Positions 44,279 through 63,237 of a DNA stretch of 64,000 nt are shown one piece after another. Source of the DNA: Flavobacterium fluviale (GTDB lineage: Bacteria > Bacteroidota > Bacteroidia > Flavobacteriales > Flavobacteriaceae); contig NZ_CP030261.1 in assembly GCF_003312915.1 (NCBI RefSeq), positions 1,612,001 to 1,676,000 of the forward strand, written 5' to 3'. Each line of letters begins with the position of its first letter. Position 1 is the first letter of the stretch. A program made the translations under genes and the position numbers. The notes beneath the pieces are model-generated. The model was given only the letters and a program-made list of their open reading frames with translations. It ran no database searches and was not told where the DNA came from.

Positions 44279-44875
44279 TTATCTGTATACTTTCCTGTTT
44301 ATAATCTTCAATTCGCCTTTTTTTTCTAAAGCTTTTATAGCCCGAATAACTGTTTCTACACGTAAACCAGTTAAATCTCCAATTTGCTGTCTCGTAAAAT
44401 TAATCAGATAACCATTTTTATCTTTTTGAAAATTAAAGTAAGCAATTCCGTGATCGATTAATTTTAAAACCCGATGTTCTGGTTCATGTGTCGATATTTC
44501 CGCGGCCATAACCGATTTATAATACAATCGCTGCGCAAGGTTTTCGATGATTTTAATACTTATTGCAGGATTTTCTTCAAGCAGTTTCATGAAATTAGAT
44601 TTTGGAAGAAGCAAAATCTGGCTGTCTTCTACAGCAATTGAATTGGCAGGATATTTTTGGTTTAAAAATAATGGAGGTTCTCCAAAAGACTGCTCTTTAT
44701 AAAATATTCCCTGAATAAATTCTCGTCCGTCGTCGTTGTAATTAGACATTTTGATTTCGCCAGAAACTATCTGATAATAATACGCGGGCAGATTTCCTTC
44801 TTCAAAGATAATTTCACCTTTTTCAAAGGACTTTTTTACCGCACCATATTTCTCTAATAATTCTGCTTCGATCAT
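44279..44875 (-). CDS. Crp/Fnr family transcription regulator without cysteines
   Basis: The product has 198 residues: a cyclic-nucleotide-binding-type beta-roll (about 10-110), a dimer helix, and a winged HTH (FTRQQIGDLTGLRVETVIRAIKALEKKG). The recognition helix keeps the VET-x-x-R pattern of FNR. There is no Cys at all, so it cannot carry the FNR iron-sulphur cluster; haem, a nucleotide or another ligand would be needed. It lies just upstream of the FNR-like operator. Confidence 0.88.
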   Translation of the reverse strand: MIEAELLEKYGAVKKSFEKGEIIFEEGNLPAYYYQIVSGEIKMSNYNDDGREFIQGIFYKEQSFGEPPLFLNQKYPANSIAVEDSQILLLPKSNFMKLLEENPAISIKIIENLAQRLYYKSVMAAEISTHEPEHRVLKLIDHGIAYFNFQKDKNGYLINFTRQQIGDLTGLRVETVIRAIKALEKKGELKIINRKVYR

Positions 44876-44969: not shown

Positions 44970-45701
44970 ATGGAGCAAAAAACACTTACTACGATCCATC
45001 AGCAGATTTTGGCAGCTAAGAAAAGCGGCCAGAAATTATTGGCTATACTTTTGGATCCTGATAAAATTGTCTGGGAAAATTTAGAACATTTATTAGATAA
45101 AATAAATCAATCACCTGCAACCCATATTTTTGTTGGAGGAAGTATTGTTCAAAGCACTATTTTAGAAGATTTAATTGCACAGCTAAAACAAAAAACAAAT
45201 TTACCAGTTGTAATATTTCCTGGAGATCCGTCGCAGATTTCCCCACAGGCAGATGCTATTTTGTTCCTGTCTTTATTATCTGGAAGAAATCCTGATTATT
45301 TAATAGAATATCAAGTTCAGGCAGCGCCAATATTAAAAAAAACAAATCTTGAAGTACTATCAACAGGATACATTTTAATTGAAAGCGGTAATGAAACGGC
45401 TGTTGCCCGAGTTAGTAAAACTGAGCCGCTTAACCGCGAAAACTTTGATCTCGCTCTTGCAACTGCACAAGCAGGCGAAATGCTCGGCAACAAATTGATT
45501 TATCTAGAAGCGGGAAGCGGGGCAGAGAAGCCGGTTCCTTTAGAAATGATTTCACTGATTGCTCAAAACATCGAAATTCCTATAATTGTTGGAGGAGGAA
45601 TTGTAGATTTGCATGGAATTAAAAAAGCTTATAATGCTGGTGCAGATTTAGTGGTTATAGGAACTGCTTTTGAAAATGACAGTCATTTTTTCGATTCATA
45701 A
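44970..45701 (+). CDS. Geranylgeranylglyceryl/heptaprenylglyceryl phosphate synthase (PcrB/GGGPS family)
   Basis: The product has 243 residues, a TIM barrel. It joins glycerol-1-phosphate to a polyprenyl diphosphate by an ether bond. Family marks are LLDPDK, FVGGSIVQST, FPGDPSQIS, EAGSGAEKPVP and VGGGIVD. Flavobacteria are known to have group II enzymes of this type, yet bacterial use of the product is unclear. It starts a plus-strand run with pnuC 28 bases on. Confidence 0.9.
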   Translation: MEQKTLTTIHQQILAAKKSGQKLLAILLDPDKIVWENLEHLLDKINQSPATHIFVGGSIVQSTILEDLIAQLKQKTNLPVVIFPGDPSQISPQADAILFLSLLSGRNPDYLIEYQVQAAPILKKTNLEVLSTGYILIESGNETAVARVSKTEPLNRENFDLALATAQAGEMLGNKLIYLEAGSGAEKPVPLEMISLIAQNIEIPIIVGGGIVDLHGIKKAYNAGADLVVIGTAFENDSHFFDS

Positions 45702-45729: not shown

Positions 45730-46350
45730 ATGATTGACTTTTTTCTTGATAGTTATAAAAATGCGCCGTTGTGGCATATTGCTCTTGAGTTTTTAGTATT
45801 TGTTTTTGGTATTTTAAGTGTATGGTTTGCAAAAAAAGAAAATATTTGGGTTTACCCAACAGGATTAATTGCAACGGTAATTTCAGTTTACCTGCTATAT
45901 GTAGCAGGTTATATTGGAGACATGATTATCAATGCCTATTTTTCAATAATGAGTATTTACGGGTGGTATGTTTGGGCAAAAGGAGGAACAGTTGAAGAAA
46001 ATCTGCCGATTACTCGTACAACTTTTAATGAAAAAATAATTGGAATCTTACTGTTTATTGTTACCGTTTTTGTAGTTTTCGGAATTTATAAATATTTTGG
46101 CTATGAAATTAAAGCAGACAATTATGTCGATATGATTTCGTCTGGAATATTTTTTGCGGGAATGTGGTACATGGCCAGGAAGAAAATAGAAAACTGGACA
46201 CTTTGGATTATTGGTGATATTATTGTTGTACCTCTTTATGCCTATCGCGGCTTAGGGATGCTGTCACTTCAGTATATAATTTTTACAATTTTGGCTATTG
46301 CAGCTTATTTAGAATGGAGAAAGATCTTAGACAGCAAAAAACAACTATAA
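45730..46350 (+). CDS. pnuC: PnuC/PnuT family vitamin transporter
   Basis: The product has 206 residues and about seven membrane helices. The Pnu signature MSIYGWYVWAKGG is at about residue 78, and WTLWIIGDIIVVPLYAYRGL lies near the C-terminus. Pnu proteins move nicotinamide riboside (PnuC), thiamine (PnuT) or riboflavin (PnuX) by facilitated diffusion, with trapping by phosphorylation. A NadR-type kinase overlaps its 3' end, favouring nicotinamide riboside. A TPP riboswitch and receptor about 2.6 kb downstream favour thiamine. The substrate cannot be settled from sequence alone. Confidence 0.88.
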   Translation: MIDFFLDSYKNAPLWHIALEFLVFVFGILSVWFAKKENIWVYPTGLIATVISVYLLYVAGYIGDMIINAYFSIMSIYGWYVWAKGGTVEENLPITRTTFNEKIIGILLFIVTVFVVFGIYKYFGYEIKADNYVDMISSGIFFAGMWYMARKKIENWTLWIIGDIIVVPLYAYRGLGMLSLQYIIFTILAIAAYLEWRKILDSKKQL

Positions 46351-48428
46351 TAAAAATTGCTTTATTTGGACCTGAAAGTACAGGTAAGACCACATTGGCA
46401 AAACAGCTTGCAGAATATTACGAAACAGAATGGGTTCCAGAATTTGCACGCGATTATTTACAGGAAAAATGGGAAGAAAATCAGCACATCTGTGTTGCAG
46501 ATGATATGATGCCAATTGCCTATGGTCAGACTGCACTGGAAAACCAAAAACTGGCTTCGGCAAATAAATACCTGTTTTGTGATACCAATTTGATGGTAAC
46601 AAAAGTTTTTTCTGAAATGTATTATGGTTTCTGTGATCCGCTTTTACATGAAGCGGCATTGACGCACGAATACGATTTATTCTTTTTAACAGATATTGAT
46701 GTTCCTTGGGAGAAAGATGATATTCGAGATACCCCAGAAGGAAGAGAAACTGTGTTTTCTGTTTTCAAACAAACATTAATTGATACCAAAAAGCCCTTTA
46801 TTACATTGTCTGGAGATAAAGAAAGCCGTTTAGCAAAAGCGATTTCAATCATTGATAATTTAACCATAGCCAAAGAAAGTGGTTTCTCATCTGATGACTT
46901 TGTACAGATATATAATAGAGGAATTTCTTTTGATGTTATTTTAAAACAATTAGATGTTTTTAAAAAAGGAATTGCAAAAAGCACTTTACTTAGACCAGCA
47001 ACAATTAATGATGGAATTTTAAGTTTGTCAGAGAATGACTTTAAAGAAAAAGCACTTTTCTTCGATAAATATAAAGATGATTTTAAAATTAAAAAGTTTG
47101 TACCTGCTTCTGGTGCGGCAACAAGAATGTATAAGTTTTTGATTGCTTTTTTAAATGATTTTTATATTCAAAAAGAAACCATTAATGCTTACATCAACAG
47201 AAAAAATGATAAGGAACTTGCCATTTTTATTGTTGGAATGGAGAAGTTTCCTTTTTTTGCAGCGGTAGATAAAAAACTTAGAGAGATTTATCCCGATTTT
47301 GATGTCTTAGAAAGAGATTATAAAAATTACTATTTTATAAAATTATTGCTTTCTCCAGATCATTTTAATTCTGCCAACAAGCCAAAAGCAGTTTTACCTT
47401 TCCATTTATATAAGACACATATTGCAAATCCAATTGAAGAACATTTAAATGAATGCGTTCATTATGCGTCATCAAGAAATGTATCTAATTTACATTTTAC
47501 AGTTTCAGAAATTCATCAGGATTTGTTTGAAAAAGCAGTTTTAGAAGTAAAGGGAAATATTGAAAAGCTTTCAGGAATTGAAATTAATATTGGCTATTCG
47601 TACCAAAATAAAAGTACGGATTCTATAACTATTGATACAAGAAACAAAGTTGTTAAGGATACAAACGGGAAGTTAATCTTTAGACCAGGAGGACACGGCG
47701 CTTTAATTGAAAACCTGAATAATCTTGATTCGGACATTATTTTTATTAAAAACATAGATAATGTCATTCAAAATCATATAGAACAAATTACATTATACAA
47801 AAAAGCTTTGGCAGGTGTTTTAATTGAAATGCAGCAGAAGAGTTTTGAATATCTCAGGCTTATAGAAGCAGGAGAGATTGCAGAAGAAAATATTGCTGCT
47901 ATTCTGCGGTTTCTACAAAAAGAGTTTAACGTTGAAATGACACCAGATTTCAATAAATTTACTTTTGAAAATAAAATAACGAAACTTAGAGATCTATTGG
48001 ATAGACCAATTCGTGTTTGCGGAATGGTTAAAAATGAAGGAGAACCAGGTGGAGGACCTTTTTGGACGATCAATAAAAAAGGTATAAAATCTCTACAAAT
48101 AGTAGAGACTTCTCAAGTTGATTTGGAAGATAAAAAGCAAGAGAGAATTTTAGCAGAAGCAACTCATTTTAACCCAGTAGATTTGGTTTGCGGAATTAAA
48201 AATTATAAAAATCAAAAGTTTGATTTAGCACAATATGTCGATCAAAATACTGGTTTTATTGTAGAGAAAAGTATTGAAGGTCGATCTGTTAAAAATTACG
48301 AACTTCCAGGCTTATGGAACGGTTCAATGGCAAATTGGTTAACTATTTTTGTTGCAGTTCCTTTGATTACTTTTAATCCGGTAAAAACAGTAAATGATTT
48401 ATTGAAAGCAGCACATCAGCCACAATAA
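46314..48428 (+). CDS. NadR-type kinase fused to DUF4301
   Basis: The product has 704 residues. About 1-185 is a NadR-like ribosylnicotinamide-kinase P-loop domain: FGPESTGKTTLAKQLAEYY, WVPEFARDYL, FCDTNLMVTKVFSEMYYG. About 190-704 matches DUF4301, with FVPASGAATRMYKF (about 262) and FRPGGHGALIENLN (about 460), which recall nucleotidyltransferase loops. It overlaps pnuC by 37 bases, so import and trapping by phosphorylation are probably linked. The DUF4301 role is unknown. arfB starts one base after its stop codon. Confidence 0.82.
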   Translation: MEKDLRQQKTTIIKIALFGPESTGKTTLAKQLAEYYETEWVPEFARDYLQEKWEENQHICVADDMMPIAYGQTALENQKLASANKYLFCDTNLMVTKVFSEMYYGFCDPLLHEAALTHEYDLFFLTDIDVPWEKDDIRDTPEGRETVFSVFKQTLIDTKKPFITLSGDKESRLAKAISIIDNLTIAKESGFSSDDFVQIYNRGISFDVILKQLDVFKKGIAKSTLLRPATINDGILSLSENDFKEKALFFDKYKDDFKIKKFVPASGAATRMYKFLIAFLNDFYIQKETINAYINRKNDKELAIFIVGMEKFPFFAAVDKKLREIYPDFDVLERDYKNYYFIKLLLSPDHFNSANKPKAVLPFHLYKTHIANPIEEHLNECVHYASSRNVSNLHFTVSEIHQDLFEKAVLEVKGNIEKLSGIEINIGYSYQNKSTDSITIDTRNKVVKDTNGKLIFRPGGHGALIENLNNLDSDIIFIKNIDNVIQNHIEQITLYKKALAGVLIEMQQKSFEYLRLIEAGEIAEENIAAILRFLQKEFNVEMTPDFNKFTFENKITKLRDLLDRPIRVCGMVKNEGEPGGGPFWTINKKGIKSLQIVETSQVDLEDKKQERILAEATHFNPVDLVCGIKNYKNQKFDLAQYVDQNTGFIVEKSIEGRSVKNYELPGLWNGSMANWLTIFVAVPLITFNPVKTVNDLLKAAHQPQ

Positions 48429-48429
48429 A

Positions 48430-48831
48430 ATGGATACAGAAAAAATCATATCAGAGTTGGGCTTTAAAGCCGTTCGGAGCAGCGGTGCCGGCGGACAAAA
48501 CGTAAATAAAGTTTCGTCAAAAGTAGTCTTGAGTTTTAATCTGAATGCTTCTCAGGCTTTATCAGAAGATGAAAAAACACTTTTAAAAGACAATTTATCT
48601 GCTCGTTTAACTACTGAAAATATCCTGATTTTAAATTGTGATGAAGATAGAAGTCAGCTAAAAAACAAAGAAATTGTTATAAAGAGATTTCTTGATTTAA
48701 TAAAAAAGGGGCTTTATGTTCCTAAGGTTAGAAAAGCAACAAAAGTTCCAAAATCGGTAATTAAGAAAAGAATTAAAGATAAAAAAAACGTTTCGGATCT
48801 TAAACAGTCAAGAAGAAAACCTGATTTTTAG
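48430..48831 (+). CDS. arfB: Alternative ribosome-rescue factor ArfB-like (peptidyl-tRNA hydrolase)
   Basis: The product has 133 residues. The GGQ motif is in SSGAGGQNVNKVSSKV (21-23), and a basic tail (KKRIKDKKNVSDLKQSRRK) would enter the mRNA channel. It lacks the codon-recognition domains of RF1/RF2. It releases nascent chains from stalled ribosomes. It begins one base after the kinase-DUF4301 stop, so it is probably co-transcribed. Confidence 0.9.
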   Translation: MDTEKIISELGFKAVRSSGAGGQNVNKVSSKVVLSFNLNASQALSEDEKTLLKDNLSARLTTENILILNCDEDRSQLKNKEIVIKRFLDLIKKGLYVPKVRKATKVPKSVIKKRIKDKKNVSDLKQSRRKPDF

Positions 48832-48921: not shown

Positions 48922-48929
48922 CACTGTCT

Positions 48930-49003
48930 CAAAGGGGTGCTCCAAATAACGAGCTGAGATCATACCCAAAGAACCTGAGCGAGTAATGTTGCTAAGGGAA
49001 AAA
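48930..49003 (+). ncRNA. TPP riboswitch (THI element)
   Basis: Conserved aptamer blocks appear in order: GGGGTGC (48934), GCTGAGAT (48953), ACCC (48964), GAACCTGA (48971) and AAGGGA (48994). This is the thiamine pyrophosphate aptamer. The gene it controls is the TonB-dependent receptor at 49160. No clear T-run terminator follows; the hairpin at 49005-49038 may be part of the expression platform. Confidence 0.93.
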
Positions 49004-49159
49004 ACGACAATTTTAAGCGTGCACACTTTATATTGTCGGAAACACATTTATTAATTTAACAAAAGAATAATTCCCCCTTTTATTTGTAATTTTTTACAGA
49101 TGAAAACTATCTTTAAAGGTACTGAGGTACTAAGTTGCAAAGGTTCTAAGGTTCAAAAA

Positions 49160-51262
49160 ATGAGCAGAACCAAATCTATTTTATTTCTTCTATTCTCTTT
49201 TTTCTATTCTCTTTTTTCTTTTGCGCAACAGCAAGATTCTACCAAAGTAAACTCTCTTGATGAGGTTTTAGTTTCTGCAGTTCGTGTTACTTCAAAAACG
49301 CCTGTTACTTTTAGTAACATGGATAAAAAAGAAATTAAAACGCGAAACCTTGGACAGGATATTCCAGTTTTAATGAATTATCTGCCATCTGTTGTAACAA
49401 CTTCTGATGCGGGAGGCGGAATTGGTTATACGGGAATCAGAGTCCGCGGAAGCGATGCTACAAGGGTAAACGTTACTATTAACGGAATTCCATACAACGA
49501 TTCTGAAAGTCAGGGGACTTTTTGGGTTAATATGCCCGATTTTGCTTCTTCTGTAGAAAGTTTGCAATTGCAACGCGGTGTTGGAACTTCTACAAATGGT
49601 TCTGGAGCTTTTGGTGCTAGTTTAAATATGCTTACAGACAATTATGCAGCAAAGGCAACTGGCGAAATTTCGAGTTCTTATGGAAGTTTCAATTCCAATA
49701 AAAACACCGTAAAATTCAGTACAGGATTATTAAATGAACATTTTGAATTGGCAGGACGTTTATCCACTATTAAATCAGATGGTTATGTTGATCGTGCAAG
49801 TTCTGATCTGAAATCCTATTTTCTGCAAGGAACTTATGTTGGAAAAACAACTTTAATTAAAGCTTTGGCTTTTGGAGGAACTCAAAAAACTTATCAATCA
49901 TGGAACGGAATCGATGCTGAAACTTTAAATGAGAATCGCAGATACAATTCGGCTGGAGAATATACCGATGAATTTGGAAATACGCGTTACTATGATAATG
50001 AAACTGACAACTATAACCAAGATCATTATCAGTTACACTGGAGTGAATCAATTTCTGATAGATGGAGTACAAATCTAGCCTTACACTACACAAAAGGGAA
50101 AGGTTATTTTGAAAATTATAAGGAAGATGCACTAATGTCTGAGTATAATTTGGCACCTGCAGATGATGTTTCAGAGACAGATCTAATTCGTCAAAAATGG
50201 TTAGATAATGATTTTTACGGAACTACTTTTTCGGCAAAATATAAAGATGAAAAACTGGATGTTATTGTAGGCGGAGGCTGGAATAAATATGAAGGCGATC
50301 ATTACGGAAAAGTAATTTGGGCGAGAAATGCTGCAGACTCAGAATTGGGAGATCATTATTATGATGATTTTTCTACAAAGACTGATGGAAATATTTTTGC
50401 TAAAGCAAATTATCAATTTACAGAAGAATTGAGTTTCTACGGAGATTTACAATACAGAAATGTGAAGTACAAAGCTAATAGCGCAGAAACAGGTCTGGTT
50501 GATGATAATTTTAATTTCTTTAATCCTAAAGCAGGTTTGAATTACGCTTTTAATCAAAATAATACATTGTATTTTTCTTATGCAAGAGCTAACCGTGAGC
50601 CAAACAGAACCGATTATGAAGGCGGAAACGTAAAGCCGGAAAAATTAAATGACTTTGAGTTAGGATGGAGATTTAATTCGGAAAAATTTCAATTGAATTC
50701 TAACCTGTATTATATGGGATATAAAGATCAATTGATTTTAACGGGAAGACTCGACGATGTCGGTGCGCCAATTCGTGCCAATTCGGAAAAAAGTTACCGC
50801 TTAGGTTTTGAGTTTGATGCTACAATTGCACTTTCGGATAAGTTTACATTGAGACCGAACTTTACTTTAAGCAGTAACAAAAATGTAGACTTAGCAGTAG
50901 ACGGTGAATATTACGGAACAACCAAAATTGCCTATTCGCCAGAAGTAATTGCAGGAAATATTATTGTTTATAAACCAATTGAGAATTTGTACGTTTCGCT
51001 ATTGCAGAAATATGTTGGAGAACAGTATATGAATAACATTGAACTGCCTGCAGCTAAGTTGGCAGATTATTTTGTAAATGACTTGAATGTTTCTTATGAA
51101 ATAAAACCAAATACTATTTTTAAATCAATTACGATCACAGGATTGGTGAATAACATTTTCGATAAAAAATATGTTTCAAATGGAGCAATGTGGGACATTT
51201 ACCCATACTATTATCCACAAGCAGGAATTAATTTTTTAGCTGGATTGACATTGAAATTTTAA
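49160..51262 (+). CDS. TonB-dependent receptor under TPP control (probable thiamine uptake)
   Basis: The product has 700 residues from ATG 49160; an upstream in-frame ATG at 49100 would put 20 odd residues before the signal peptide. A signal peptide (MSRTKSILFLLFSFFYSLFSFAQQ), a TonB-box region (SLDEVLVSAVRV), a plug (YTGIRVRGSDATRVNVTINGIPYND) and a barrel ending in F are present. There is no CarboxypepD domain, unlike SusC. The TPP riboswitch in its leader makes thiamine or a precursor the likely ligand. Confidence 0.92.
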   Translation: MSRTKSILFLLFSFFYSLFSFAQQQDSTKVNSLDEVLVSAVRVTSKTPVTFSNMDKKEIKTRNLGQDIPVLMNYLPSVVTTSDAGGGIGYTGIRVRGSDATRVNVTINGIPYNDSESQGTFWVNMPDFASSVESLQLQRGVGTSTNGSGAFGASLNMLTDNYAAKATGEISSSYGSFNSNKNTVKFSTGLLNEHFELAGRLSTIKSDGYVDRASSDLKSYFLQGTYVGKTTLIKALAFGGTQKTYQSWNGIDAETLNENRRYNSAGEYTDEFGNTRYYDNETDNYNQDHYQLHWSESISDRWSTNLALHYTKGKGYFENYKEDALMSEYNLAPADDVSETDLIRQKWLDNDFYGTTFSAKYKDEKLDVIVGGGWNKYEGDHYGKVIWARNAADSELGDHYYDDFSTKTDGNIFAKANYQFTEELSFYGDLQYRNVKYKANSAETGLVDDNFNFFNPKAGLNYAFNQNNTLYFSYARANREPNRTDYEGGNVKPEKLNDFELGWRFNSEKFQLNSNLYYMGYKDQLILTGRLDDVGAPIRANSEKSYRLGFEFDATIALSDKFTLRPNFTLSSNKNVDLAVDGEYYGTTKIAYSPEVIAGNIIVYKPIENLYVSLLQKYVGEQYMNNIELPAAKLADYFVNDLNVSYEIKPNTIFKSITITGLVNNIFDKKYVSNGAMWDIYPYYYPQAGINFLAGLTLKF

Positions 51263-60448: not shown

Positions 60449-61243
60449 ATGAGTGCAGTATACAGTGTAAAAGAAATTTACATTTATCCAATAAAAAGTC
60501 TGGCAGGAATAAGCTGTAAAGATGCTGTTGCCCAAGAAATGGGATTTGAAAATGACCGCAGATGGATGTTAATTGATGCAGATAATCAAATGATCACGCA
60601 GAGAGAACATCCAATCATGAGTCAGTTTTATCCACAAATTGCTGATGGAAAACTTAGTTTAGTTTTTGAAGAACAACAACATGAATTTTCTATTGATGAA
60701 TATATAAATGCTAAAATTGAAACAACTGTTTGGGATGATAAAACAGAAGTTTTTGAGGTTAGTAAAAACACTTCAAAATGGTTTAGCGATTGTTTGGGTT
60801 TTGAATGTAAACTAGTTAAAATAAATAATCTTGGAGACCGCAGGCATGAAAGTTCCAAACTCAAAGAAACTTTTAATGTTAGTCTAGCCGATGGATACCC
60901 ATATTTATTGGTTGGAACAGAAAGTATGGATGTCTTAAATGATAAATTAGAACAAAAAATTACTGTAAAAAGATTTCGTCCTAACATTGTTATTAATACT
61001 GAAAACGCTCACGAAGAAGACAATTTTACTACTTTTAAAATTGGAGAAGTGGAGTTTAAAAACATTAAAATCTGCGAAAGATGTATTATGGTCAACAATG
61101 ATCCAGAGAAAGGAATTGTAAAAAAAGAACCACTAAAAACACTCAGCAAATACAGAAGGGTAGGTAATGCGGTTTTTTTTGGAACTAACATTGTCAGTTT
61201 AAATTCGGGAATTATAAGTGTTGGGGATGAGGTTGTATTTTAA
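60449..61243 (+). CDS. MOSC domain protein (YcbX-like, molybdenum cofactor)
   Basis: The product has 264 residues. An N-terminal MOSC_N beta-barrel (about 5-115, IYIYPIKSLAGISCKDAV) is joined to a MOSC domain with the cofactor-type Cys in KICERCIMVNNDPEKG (about residue 209). It lacks the ferredoxin domain of E. coli YcbX. Detoxification of N-hydroxylated compounds is the likely role by family. Its 3' end overlaps thiF by four bases. Confidence 0.88.
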   Translation: MSAVYSVKEIYIYPIKSLAGISCKDAVAQEMGFENDRRWMLIDADNQMITQREHPIMSQFYPQIADGKLSLVFEEQQHEFSIDEYINAKIETTVWDDKTEVFEVSKNTSKWFSDCLGFECKLVKINNLGDRRHESSKLKETFNVSLADGYPYLLVGTESMDVLNDKLEQKITVKRFRPNIVINTENAHEEDNFTTFKIGEVEFKNIKICERCIMVNNDPEKGIVKKEPLKTLSKYRRVGNAVFFGTNIVSLNSGIISVGDEVVF

Positions 61244-61950
61244 AAATTCAGCTTTGTAAAGTTCCAGTTTAAAGTATTAAAAATTACAAGCTCGTTTTTT
61301 AAAGTTGGTAATTCCAAAATTAATTTTAAGGTTTCGTGTGCCATCATATTGCCAATAATTCCGGGAAGTGTTCCTAAAACTCCATTCAAATTACAATTCG
61401 GAACATCTTTTGGATCTGGCATTTCTGGAAATAAATCACGCAGATTTTTACTTCCGTTATGATTAAAAACCGCAATTTGTCCTTCAAACTTTAAAATGCT
61501 TCCGTAAACTAATGGTTTTTTAAGCTGAACACAAGTATCATTGACCAAATAACGAGTCGAAAAATTATCAGAACCATCTACAATAATGTCAAATTGTTCT
61601 ATAATTTTTGAAGCATTTTCTGAAGTTAATTTTTCATTAATCTCAACAGTTTCAATCAGCGGATTTAATTTAGAAATAACATCTTTTGCCACAACTGCTT
61701 TGTGCTGGCCAATTTCGTTTTCGGTATATAAGATCTGTCTGTGCAGATTATGAATTTCAATCGTATCAAAATCCATAATTCCGATAAAACCAACTCCGGC
61801 CGTTGCAATATATTGTAAAATAGGGCAGCCCAAACCACCAGCTCCAATTACTAAAACACGTGCTTTTTTTAATTTTTCCTGACCTTCATCACCAATTTCA
61901 GGGAGAATAGTTTGTCTGTTGTAACGAAGGAATTCTTTGATAATGCTCAT
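61240..61950 (-). CDS. thiF: ThiF/MoeB-type adenylyltransferase
   Basis: The product has 236 residues. It would adenylate the C-terminal Gly of ThiS for sulphur transfer. Marks are RYNRQTILPEIGDEGQEKL, the nucleotide loop VIGAGGLGCP, DFDTIEIHNLHRQIL and GSDNFSTRYLVND. The CxxC zinc pairs of MoeB/ThiF are not visible. Close neighbours thiH and thiG on the same strand support ThiF over MoeB. An AT-rich repeat-like gap of 84 bases separates it from thiH. Confidence 0.88.
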   Translation of the reverse strand: MSIIKEFLRYNRQTILPEIGDEGQEKLKKARVLVIGAGGLGCPILQYIATAGVGFIGIMDFDTIEIHNLHRQILYTENEIGQHKAVVAKDVISKLNPLIETVEINEKLTSENASKIIEQFDIIVDGSDNFSTRYLVNDTCVQLKKPLVYGSILKFEGQIAVFNHNGSKNLRDLFPEMPDPKDVPNCNLNGVLGTLPGIIGNMMAHETLKLILELPTLKNELVIFNTLNWNFTKLNF

Positions 61951-62034
61951 TTTTTTAATTGTGAATTGTGAGTTGTGAATTGTAAAATTTTAAGTCCACA
62001 AACCTTAAACCTTAAACCTGAAACCTGAAACGTT
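61951..62034. repeat. Simple repeats between thiF and thiH
   Basis: Tandem copies of TTGTGAATTGTGA-like text (61968-61984) and of AAACCTTAAACC/AAACCTGAAACC text (62000-62031) fill the gap. The latter shares AACCTGAAACCTGAAAC with the inverted repeat at 39237-39297. Confidence 0.6.
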
Positions 62035-63147
62035 TCAACTATAAACTTTATCCCAATCTTTCCAAACAGGTTCGTAGCCGGCTTTTTTAATAATTTTTGA
62101 AATTTCAGCTACAGATCGTTCGTCGCTTATTTCAAATTGTTCTAATGATTGCGGATCAACAACATAACCACCTGGATTTGTTTTAGAACCAGCGCTCATA
62201 CTTGTAACTCCGATTGGAATAATATTGTTTCTAAATTTCTCGTTTTCACGAGTTGAAATCGAAATTTCTAAATCTTCATTCCATAAACGATATGCGCAGA
62301 TTAACTGTGTCAAATCTTTATCATCCATAATAAAATTGGGTTCAATAATACCTTCGGCAGGGCGGAGGCGCGGAAAAGAAACCGAATATTTCGTCTGCCA
62401 ATATTTTTTTTGAAGATAATCTAAATGCAAAGCATTGAAAAAACTGTCTGTTCGCCAATCTTCCAGACCTAATAAAACACCTAAACCAATCTTATGAATT
62501 CCGGCAGTTCCTATTCTATCTGGAGTTTCTAATCTATAGTCGAAATTTGATTTTTTTCCTTTCGTATGATATTTTTTGTAAACTTCCTGATGATAAGTTT
62601 CCTGATAAACCAAAACCGAATAAACTCCAGCTTCATGCAGACGTTCATAATCTTCTGTAGAAAGCGGCTGGACTTCAACCGAAATAATCGAAAAATCTTT
62701 TCGAATTAAGTCAATTGCATTTAGAAAATAGTTAATATTTACGGTGTAATTGGCTTCGCCCGTGACCAGTAAAACATGATCGAAGCCATTGTTTTTTAAG
62801 GCTTCAACTTCAAGTTTTATCTCAGCATCAGAAAGTGTTTTTCTTTTAATTTTATTGTCTAAACTAAATCCGCAATACGTACAAATGTTCTGGCATTCGT
62901 TGCTTAAATACAAAGGTGCATACATTTGAATCGTTTTCCCGAAGCGTTTTTTCGTAATTTCATGGCATTTCTGTGCCATTTGTTCTAAATAATTTTGTGC
63001 AATTGGAGAAATCAAGACTAGAAAATCATCGAGATTTAGTTTAGTTTTTGCCAAAGTCTGCTCGACATCTTTTGACGTGGTTTTGTATATTTTGGATTGA
63101 ATAGAATCCCAATTATATTGCTCAAAAATAGATTTGAATGTGTTCAT
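62035..63147 (-). CDS. thiH: 2-iminoacetate synthase ThiH
   Basis: The product has 370 residues from ATG 63147; the longer frame to 63192 would run into a palindromic repeat. The radical-SAM cluster motif is in NECQNICTYCGFS (CxxxCxxC, about residue 85). Further marks are HVLLVTGEANYTV, YQETYHQEVYKKYH and the C-terminal EISDERSVAEI. It splits tyrosine to dehydroglycine for thiazole formation. It lies between thiG and thiF. Confidence 0.95.
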   Translation of the reverse strand: MNTFKSIFEQYNWDSIQSKIYKTTSKDVEQTLAKTKLNLDDFLVLISPIAQNYLEQMAQKCHEITKKRFGKTIQMYAPLYLSNECQNICTYCGFSLDNKIKRKTLSDAEIKLEVEALKNNGFDHVLLVTGEANYTVNINYFLNAIDLIRKDFSIISVEVQPLSTEDYERLHEAGVYSVLVYQETYHQEVYKKYHTKGKKSNFDYRLETPDRIGTAGIHKIGLGVLLGLEDWRTDSFFNALHLDYLQKKYWQTKYSVSFPRLRPAEGIIEPNFIMDDKDLTQLICAYRLWNEDLEISISTRENEKFRNNIIPIGVTSMSAGSKTNPGGYVVDPQSLEQFEISDERSVAEISKIIKKAGYEPVWKDWDKVYS

Positions 63148-63151
63148 AGTT

Positions 63152-63237
63152 TTTAACCGCAAAGCACGCGGAGATTTACGCAAGGTTCGCAAAGCTTTGC
63201 GTTCTTAGCGCTTTTCTTTGCGAACTTTGCGGTTAAA
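63152..63237. repeat. Nested palindromic repeat between thiG and thiH
   Basis: The outer 13-bp arms 63152-63164 and 63225-63237 (TTTAACCGCAAAG) are exact inverses; inner arms with TTCGCAAAG and CTTTGCGAA pair as well. It almost fills the gap and could change thiH expression relative to thiG. Confidence 0.8.

Follow-up and report, generated by a model that had tools for sequence, protein, structure and literature searches.

Thiamine salvage in Bacteroides thetaiotaomicron is encoded by the operon OMthi-pnuT-tnr3 (PMC5613172), and in Bacteroides PnuT is usually paired with thiamine pyrophosphokinase (TPK). In NadR, which is found with the related transporter PnuC, the NMN adenylyltransferase (NMNAT) domain has a Rossmann-like fold (PMC7221760). 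The OMthi-pnuT-tnr3 operon is the closest known system to the locus described here, which lies in a 64-kb window (the whole stretch of DNA that was analyzed) of the Flavobacterium fluviale genome and encodes a Pnu transporter, a kinase fused to DUF4301, and a TonB-dependent receptor. The features, with coordinates in the window, are as follows.

44970..45701, + strand: PcrB-family gene, conserved upstream neighbor (PF01884)
45730..46350, + strand: PnuC/PnuT-family vitamin transporter, predicted thiamine importer (PnuT-like) (PF04973, 164.6 bits; WxxWxxxD at residues 156-163; thiamine context of the block)
46314..48428, + strand: NadR-type kinase + DUF4301 fusion, 704 aa (AAA_28, DUF4301, and TIGR01526 matches)
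46314..46868, + strand: NadR-type P-loop kinase domain, predicted thiamine kinase (AAA_28, 137.5 bits; AF2 model)
46890..48419, + strand: DUF4301 domain, predicted UDPGP-type (UDP-glucose/UDP-GlcNAc pyrophosphorylase) fold (PF14134, 654 bits; model, fold searches, profile match)
48430..48831, + strand: RF-1-domain (ArfB-like) gene, conserved neighbor (PF00472; synteny)
48923..49016, + strand: TPP riboswitch, 5' of the receptor gene (RF00059, 36.2 bits, E 0.002, under the Rfam gathering score of 54.3)
49100..51262, + strand: TonB-dependent receptor, predicted outer-membrane thiamine receptor (OMthi-like) (PF00593, PF07715; TPP riboswitch 5')
61240..63192, - strand: 3' end of a thiamine biosynthesis operon (thiF-like, thiH), the rest lying beyond the window

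Organization of the locus and its relatives

The Pnu open reading frame (206 aa) overlaps the frame of the 704-residue protein by 37 nucleotides. This arrangement, already given in the preliminary description, is confirmed by the ORF calls and by Pfam: the Pnu protein matches NMN_transporter (PF04973) far above the cutoff of 27.3 bits, and the longer protein matches AAA_28 (PF13521) at residues 14 to 172 and DUF4301 (PF14134) at residues 193 to 702. Apart from the window, 33 of 105 related loci have the same fused frame, including those of named Flavobacterium species and Croceivirga, and the fusion is therefore neither a chance event nor an assembly artifact. In the survey of neighbors and fusions across Bacteroidota that the preliminary description suggested, neither the fusion nor the Pnu linkage proved unique to the F. 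fluviale genome.

The block in Flavobacteriaceae runs in the order SAHH (opposite strand), PPTase, PcrB, an 86-aa protein, Pnu, kinase, DUF4301, RF-1-domain protein, and TonB receptor, with individual members missing from some genomes. The RF-1-domain gene is probably unrelated in function to the rest. The window also carries, upstream of the block and on the opposite strand, a Crp/Fnr-type regulator (cNMP_binding, HTH_Crp; 44279-44875) that few relatives have. One related locus (L106) has the fusion on a contig titled as a Klebsiella pneumoniae MAG and groups inside Flavobacterium; the contig is evidently mislabeled or contaminated.

The conserved unit, judged by sequence, consists of a TonB receptor bearing a TPP riboswitch, a Pnu transporter, and a NadR-type kinase. 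The receptor and the transporter co-occur in the block in the window and its relatives, and the receptor is conserved beside Pnu-kinase in several families. In the window, the TPP element precedes the receptor gene, not Pnu. A covariance model of our own, made from ten receptor-side elements, found a TPP element in 34 of the 96 sources searched (the window and 33 related loci), many of them outside the training set, and in 0 of 30 DUF4301 loci that have neither Pnu nor the kinase. None was found in five distant Pnu-kinase loci scanned. The 86-aa protein of relatives resembles Thiamine_BP (PF01910; cluster c11), with a score of 23.0 bits that falls just short of the cutoff of 24.9; its gene lies immediately 5' of Pnu in most unfused loci and is absent from the window. 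A second TPP riboswitch, the only other one in the genome, lies before a thiamine biosynthesis operon (thiC, tenI-like, thiD, thiE, a gene in the thiG position, thiH, and thiF-like) whose end falls inside the window.

A NadR-type kinase predicted to act on thiamine

The preliminary description had called the N-terminal part NadR-like, which holds for the kinase domain and not for the adenylyltransferase half of NadR. The NadR model of NCBIfam (TIGR01526) matches the kinase part only (model positions 164 to 322, 99.9 bits against a cutoff of 341), and TIGR01526, Pfam, and structure searches find no NMNAT domain in the window protein, the remainder being DUF4301 with a predicted UDPGP fold. The best Foldseek matches to an AlphaFold (AF2) model of the kinase domain (pLDDT 89.5) are NadR kinase domains, with a TM score of 0.84 to 8x7f, and thymidylate kinases are next closest. 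Kinase motifs include a Walker A sequence, GPESTGKT, at residues 19 to 26, Asp90, and the group Trp132, Asp135, Asp136, and Arg138. The Pfam model for thiamine pyrophosphokinase (PF04263) does not match the window kinase, and the TPK of this genome is located elsewhere.

Across 395 Bacteroidota genomes, the kinase is present in many families of Bacteroidia at a length of ~160 to 220 residues, usually encoded right after Pnu and without DUF4301. The core kinase clade is separate from NadR (SH-aLRT 85), and PnuC-NadR pairs exist at other loci too, including in two genomes of the window's genus. We rejected Pnu residues as a guide to specificity because WxxWxxxD occurs alike in Pnu proteins linked to this kinase and in those linked to NadR; in the Pnu tree the two groups are not cleanly split, and a single clade is not rejected (p-AU 0.42). 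A defense role was also set aside, its sole support being a P-loop-level match to LeoA. Three short NadR-like kinases (L235, L238, and L239; family f38) lie outside the core clade, have no adjacent Pnu, and come from genomes without a TPK match. The window's genome contains a second AAA_28 protein of 186 aa (G000:C1:129089-129580), which the kinase query missed. In the open literature searched, which takes in few subscription papers, we found no report of a NadR-like thiamine kinase.

To compare the kinase with TPK, both were sought in the same 395 Bacteroidota genomes, and the kinase was scored as absent where its matches had only a NadR-length frame or a very weak score. Among Bacteroidia outside the window's genus, 58 genomes have the kinase only, 15 have TPK (PF04263) only, 1 has both, and 1 has neither. 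This near-exclusion has a Fisher p of about 1e-13, a value that overstates independence since the genomes are related. In G367, the genome that has both, the kinase is not beside Pnu and lies outside the core clade. ThiL, which converts thiamine monophosphate (TMP) to TPP, is encoded in 127 of 129 genomes of class Bacteroidia. Because the kinase and TPK are nearly exclusive and ThiL is nearly universal, a thiamine kinase followed by ThiL would be the simplest path to fit the data. In Flavobacterium, TPK is present in 23 of 23 sampled genomes, including the window's, and all losses of the kinase with retention of Pnu fall within the Flavobacterium clade. These distributions lead us to predict that the kinase stands in for TPK; in Flavobacterium the two coexist. 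Since the window's genome has TPK, the kinase may be redundant there and could act on another substrate.

DUF4301 resembles UDP-sugar pyrophosphorylases

The preliminary description also noted that loops of DUF4301 recall nucleotidyltransferases and proposed a structural comparison. Modeled fold and motifs agree with this suggestion. The AF2 model of DUF4301 (pLDDT 90.7, pTM 0.89) has 37 Foldseek matches with an E value of 0.001 or below, all of them UDPGP-family enzymes (best, 1.3e-10), and VIA aligns 333 residues to Leishmania UGP (Z 23.3, rmsd 3.7 Å), with UAPs at a Z of about 20. Compared with PDB sequences in HMMER, a DUF4301 profile matches the UDP-GlcNAc pyrophosphorylase 3oc9 (E 0.0025), the alignment falling at GHG..DN, and weakly matches the UDP-glucose pyrophosphorylase 7ppr (E 0.45) at PVKT..DLL. 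The PF01704 (UDPGP) profile matches the DUF4301 gene of one genome (G009) with an E value of 5.5e-4, below the cutoff, and has no match in the window protein or its genome. On the evidence of the model, DUF4301 has a nucleotidyltransferase fold of the UDPGP type and is either a member of that family or its sister.

An alignment of 27 diverse DUF4301 sequences has ~65 invariant columns, stretches of which cover parts of FVPASGAA(S/T)RM, PK, GHGAL, KNIDN, GEPGGGPF, PGLWNG, and PVK. In the window protein, FVPASGAATRM lies at residues 262 to 272, PK at 357 and 358, GGHG at 459 to 462, KNIDN at 479 to 483, and FNPVK at 687 to 691. In AfUAP1, residues T140, R141, K148, and K437 hold the phosphates (PMC8386105). 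Their counterparts in DUF4301 are T270, R271, K358, and K691, with the loop and PK matched by motif, not by residue-level superposition, and these positions are conserved or invariant. Set against GGxGTRM, the glycine loop SGAA(S/T)RM retains the second Gly, the Thr/Ser, and the Arg, and the other Gly is changed. About 85 residues, mostly helical, separate the loop from PK. By these motifs and the modeled fold, DUF4301 probably catalyzes nucleotidyl transfer to a sugar 1-phosphate, with an NTP, most likely UTP, as the donor, and UTP:sugar-1-phosphate nucleotidyltransferase is the likeliest class for it.

The open literature searched holds a single passing mention of DUF4301. We considered DUF4301 as the missing UDP-glucose pyrophosphorylase, for which presence and absence are uninformative: genomes without DUF4301 are also without GalU and PF01704. 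GalU scores above its cutoff in 5 of 395 Bacteroidota genomes and PF01704 in 3 of 80, and the UDP-glucose pyrophosphorylase of most Bacteroidota escapes both models. Three genomes (G383, G166, and G033) have UDPGP-matching stretches in frames of 1116 to 1156 aa, ~3 kb from partial GalU-like matches; the protein is unusual and large.

Distribution of DUF4301 and origin of the fusion

DUF4301 is present in 66 of 395 Bacteroidota genomes. In genera other than the window's, it almost always occupies a frame of ~500 to 580 residues; most genomes of the window's genus, and two further genera of Flavobacteriaceae, have the long fused frame. Among the 105 related loci, the kinase and DUF4301 are separate in 54, fused in 33 (the window not counted), and without the kinase in 18. 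On the DUF4301 tree, the fused proteins are those of Flavobacterium, of Croceivirga together with G300, and of G194 beside Algibacter, suggesting that the fusion arose about three times. Where the kinase and DUF4301 are separate genes, an overlap of a few bases is usual, which would make fusion easy; in our proposal, two adjacent, often overlapping genes would have become one.

The kinase has been lost in several Flavobacterium lineages, where the DUF4301 ORF often keeps a kinase-like start (MEE or MEK) and then passes directly into DUF4301. At one locus (L055:5578-6100), an N-terminal stretch looks like a decayed kinase with its P-loop replaced, and DUF4301 is intact. The retention of DUF4301 where the kinase is deleted or decayed indicates that DUF4301 is independent of the kinase. 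Sampled genomes from outside Flavobacteriaceae show no association of DUF4301 with Pnu or the kinase, and its neighbors there vary by lineage, with no pathway emerging. In many Bacteroidota DUF4301 is found by itself, without thiamine genes; it has been joined to the kinase on about three occasions, and it outlasts the kinase. For these reasons it is probably a passenger with a role separate from thiamine. The recurrence of the fusion could nonetheless be a sign of functional coupling between kinase and DUF4301. In one Flavobacterium-type genome, DUF4301 is interrupted by one stop and gives split matches (L081:5983-7502; G285:C54:1491357-1492843), representing a pseudogene or an assembly error.

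A probable thiamine salvage module and its alternatives

We consider it likely that the locus is a Flavobacteriaceae thiamine salvage module in which the NadR-type kinase makes TMP and DUF4301 is a UDPGP-type protein, probably with a separate role. The TonB receptor would bring thiamine into the periplasm, the Pnu protein would pass it through the inner membrane, and the kinase would convert it to TMP, trapping the vitamin inside. ThiL, encoded elsewhere, would then produce TPP, with the kinase standing in for TPK. Import followed by phosphorylation, as the preliminary description had it, is the best reading of Pnu and the kinase.

The same description made DUF4301 the last step of NAD synthesis: Pnu would import nicotinamide riboside, the kinase would yield NMN, and DUF4301 would adenylylate NMN to NAD. 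The kinship of Pnu and the kinase with PnuC and NadR fits such a route, as does a nucleotidyltransferase fold in DUF4301, but the fold is of the UDPGP sugar type and not that of the Rossmann-like NMNAT domain, DUF4301 outlives the kinase, and it was absent from the Pnu-kinase loci sampled beyond Flavobacteriaceae. The TPP riboswitch, the Thiamine_BP-like gene, the near-exclusion with TPK, and the existence of separate PnuC-NadR pairs, in the same genus included, all point to thiamine, very probably the vitamin handled here, rather than NAD, and no NAD riboswitch was found among five loci scanned. We therefore regard the NAD route as very improbable; most likely, the locus traps vitamin B1 and does not complete NAD synthesis. 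A kinase that acts as a thiamine pyrophosphokinase and makes TPP directly would explain how it takes the place of TPK in most Bacteroidia genomes sampled. This is improbable given its NadR/thymidylate-kinase fold, which is that of enzymes moving one phosphoryl group, and the almost constant presence of ThiL to complete the path.

Two further explanations concern DUF4301. A two-step thiamine enzyme, in which the kinase would make TMP and DUF4301 would nucleotidylate a thiamine phosphate, for example to adenosine thiamine di- or triphosphate or a uridine analogue, would account for the adjacency, frequent few-base overlap, and repeated fusion of the two genes, and E. coli has a known ThDP adenylyltransferase activity (PMC1976097). 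DUF4301 is nevertheless widespread without nearby thiamine genes, stays when the kinase is deleted, and has the motifs of UTP:sugar-1-phosphate enzymes, which leaves us with very little credence in this scheme. We know of no gene assigned to the E. coli activity. It is also conceivable, though doubtful, that the thiamine kinase reading holds and DUF4301 is a degenerate, noncatalytic UDPGP-like domain with a regulatory or structural role. The altered glycine-rich loop (SGAATRM) and the large helical insertion before PK are what such a domain might show, but the many invariant columns that fall in expected active-site motifs favor retained catalysis.

If the thiamine salvage reading is true, NadR-type thiamine kinases explain how many Bacteroidia that lack TPK use external vitamin B1. 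In Bacteroidota, genes annotated as PnuC plus a NadR-like kinase (nicotinamide riboside transporter and kinase) probably often belong to thiamine. New here are a predicted family of NadR-type thiamine kinases and a predicted fold class for DUF4301, which places a domain of unknown function in a defined enzyme superfamily with candidate active-site residues.

Comparison with known systems

Like OMthi-pnuT-tnr3 of B. thetaiotaomicron, the F. fluviale locus combines a TonB receptor linked to a TPP riboswitch, a Pnu inner-membrane transporter, and a downstream vitamin-phosphorylating enzyme, the last predicted here. It differs in having a NadR-type P-loop kinase where B. thetaiotaomicron has Tnr3, a thiamine pyrophosphokinase (PF04263), and in the fusion of the Flavobacterium kinase to DUF4301. 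With the kinase domain of NadR (PDB 1lw7, 8x7f, and 6gyf) it shares the fold, the Walker A motif, acidic residues, and a Pnu neighbor; unlike NadR, the window protein has no NMNAT or DNA-binding domain, falls in a separate core clade, and sits in a thiamine context. DUF4301, in turn, shares with the UDPGP family (UGP, UAP, and USP; PF01704) the predicted fold over most of its length, GHG, DN, the Arg of the nucleotide loop, PK, and the C-terminal Lys motif, and departs from it in its low identity (~15%), changed glycine loop, and long helical insertion between loop and PK. FKP is a fusion of a kinase and a nucleotidyltransferase. Both NadR and FKP have, like the protein described here, a kinase and a nucleotidyltransferase on one chain (both predicted in our case), whereas the genome context of the F. 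fluviale fusion argues for different pathways for its two domains.
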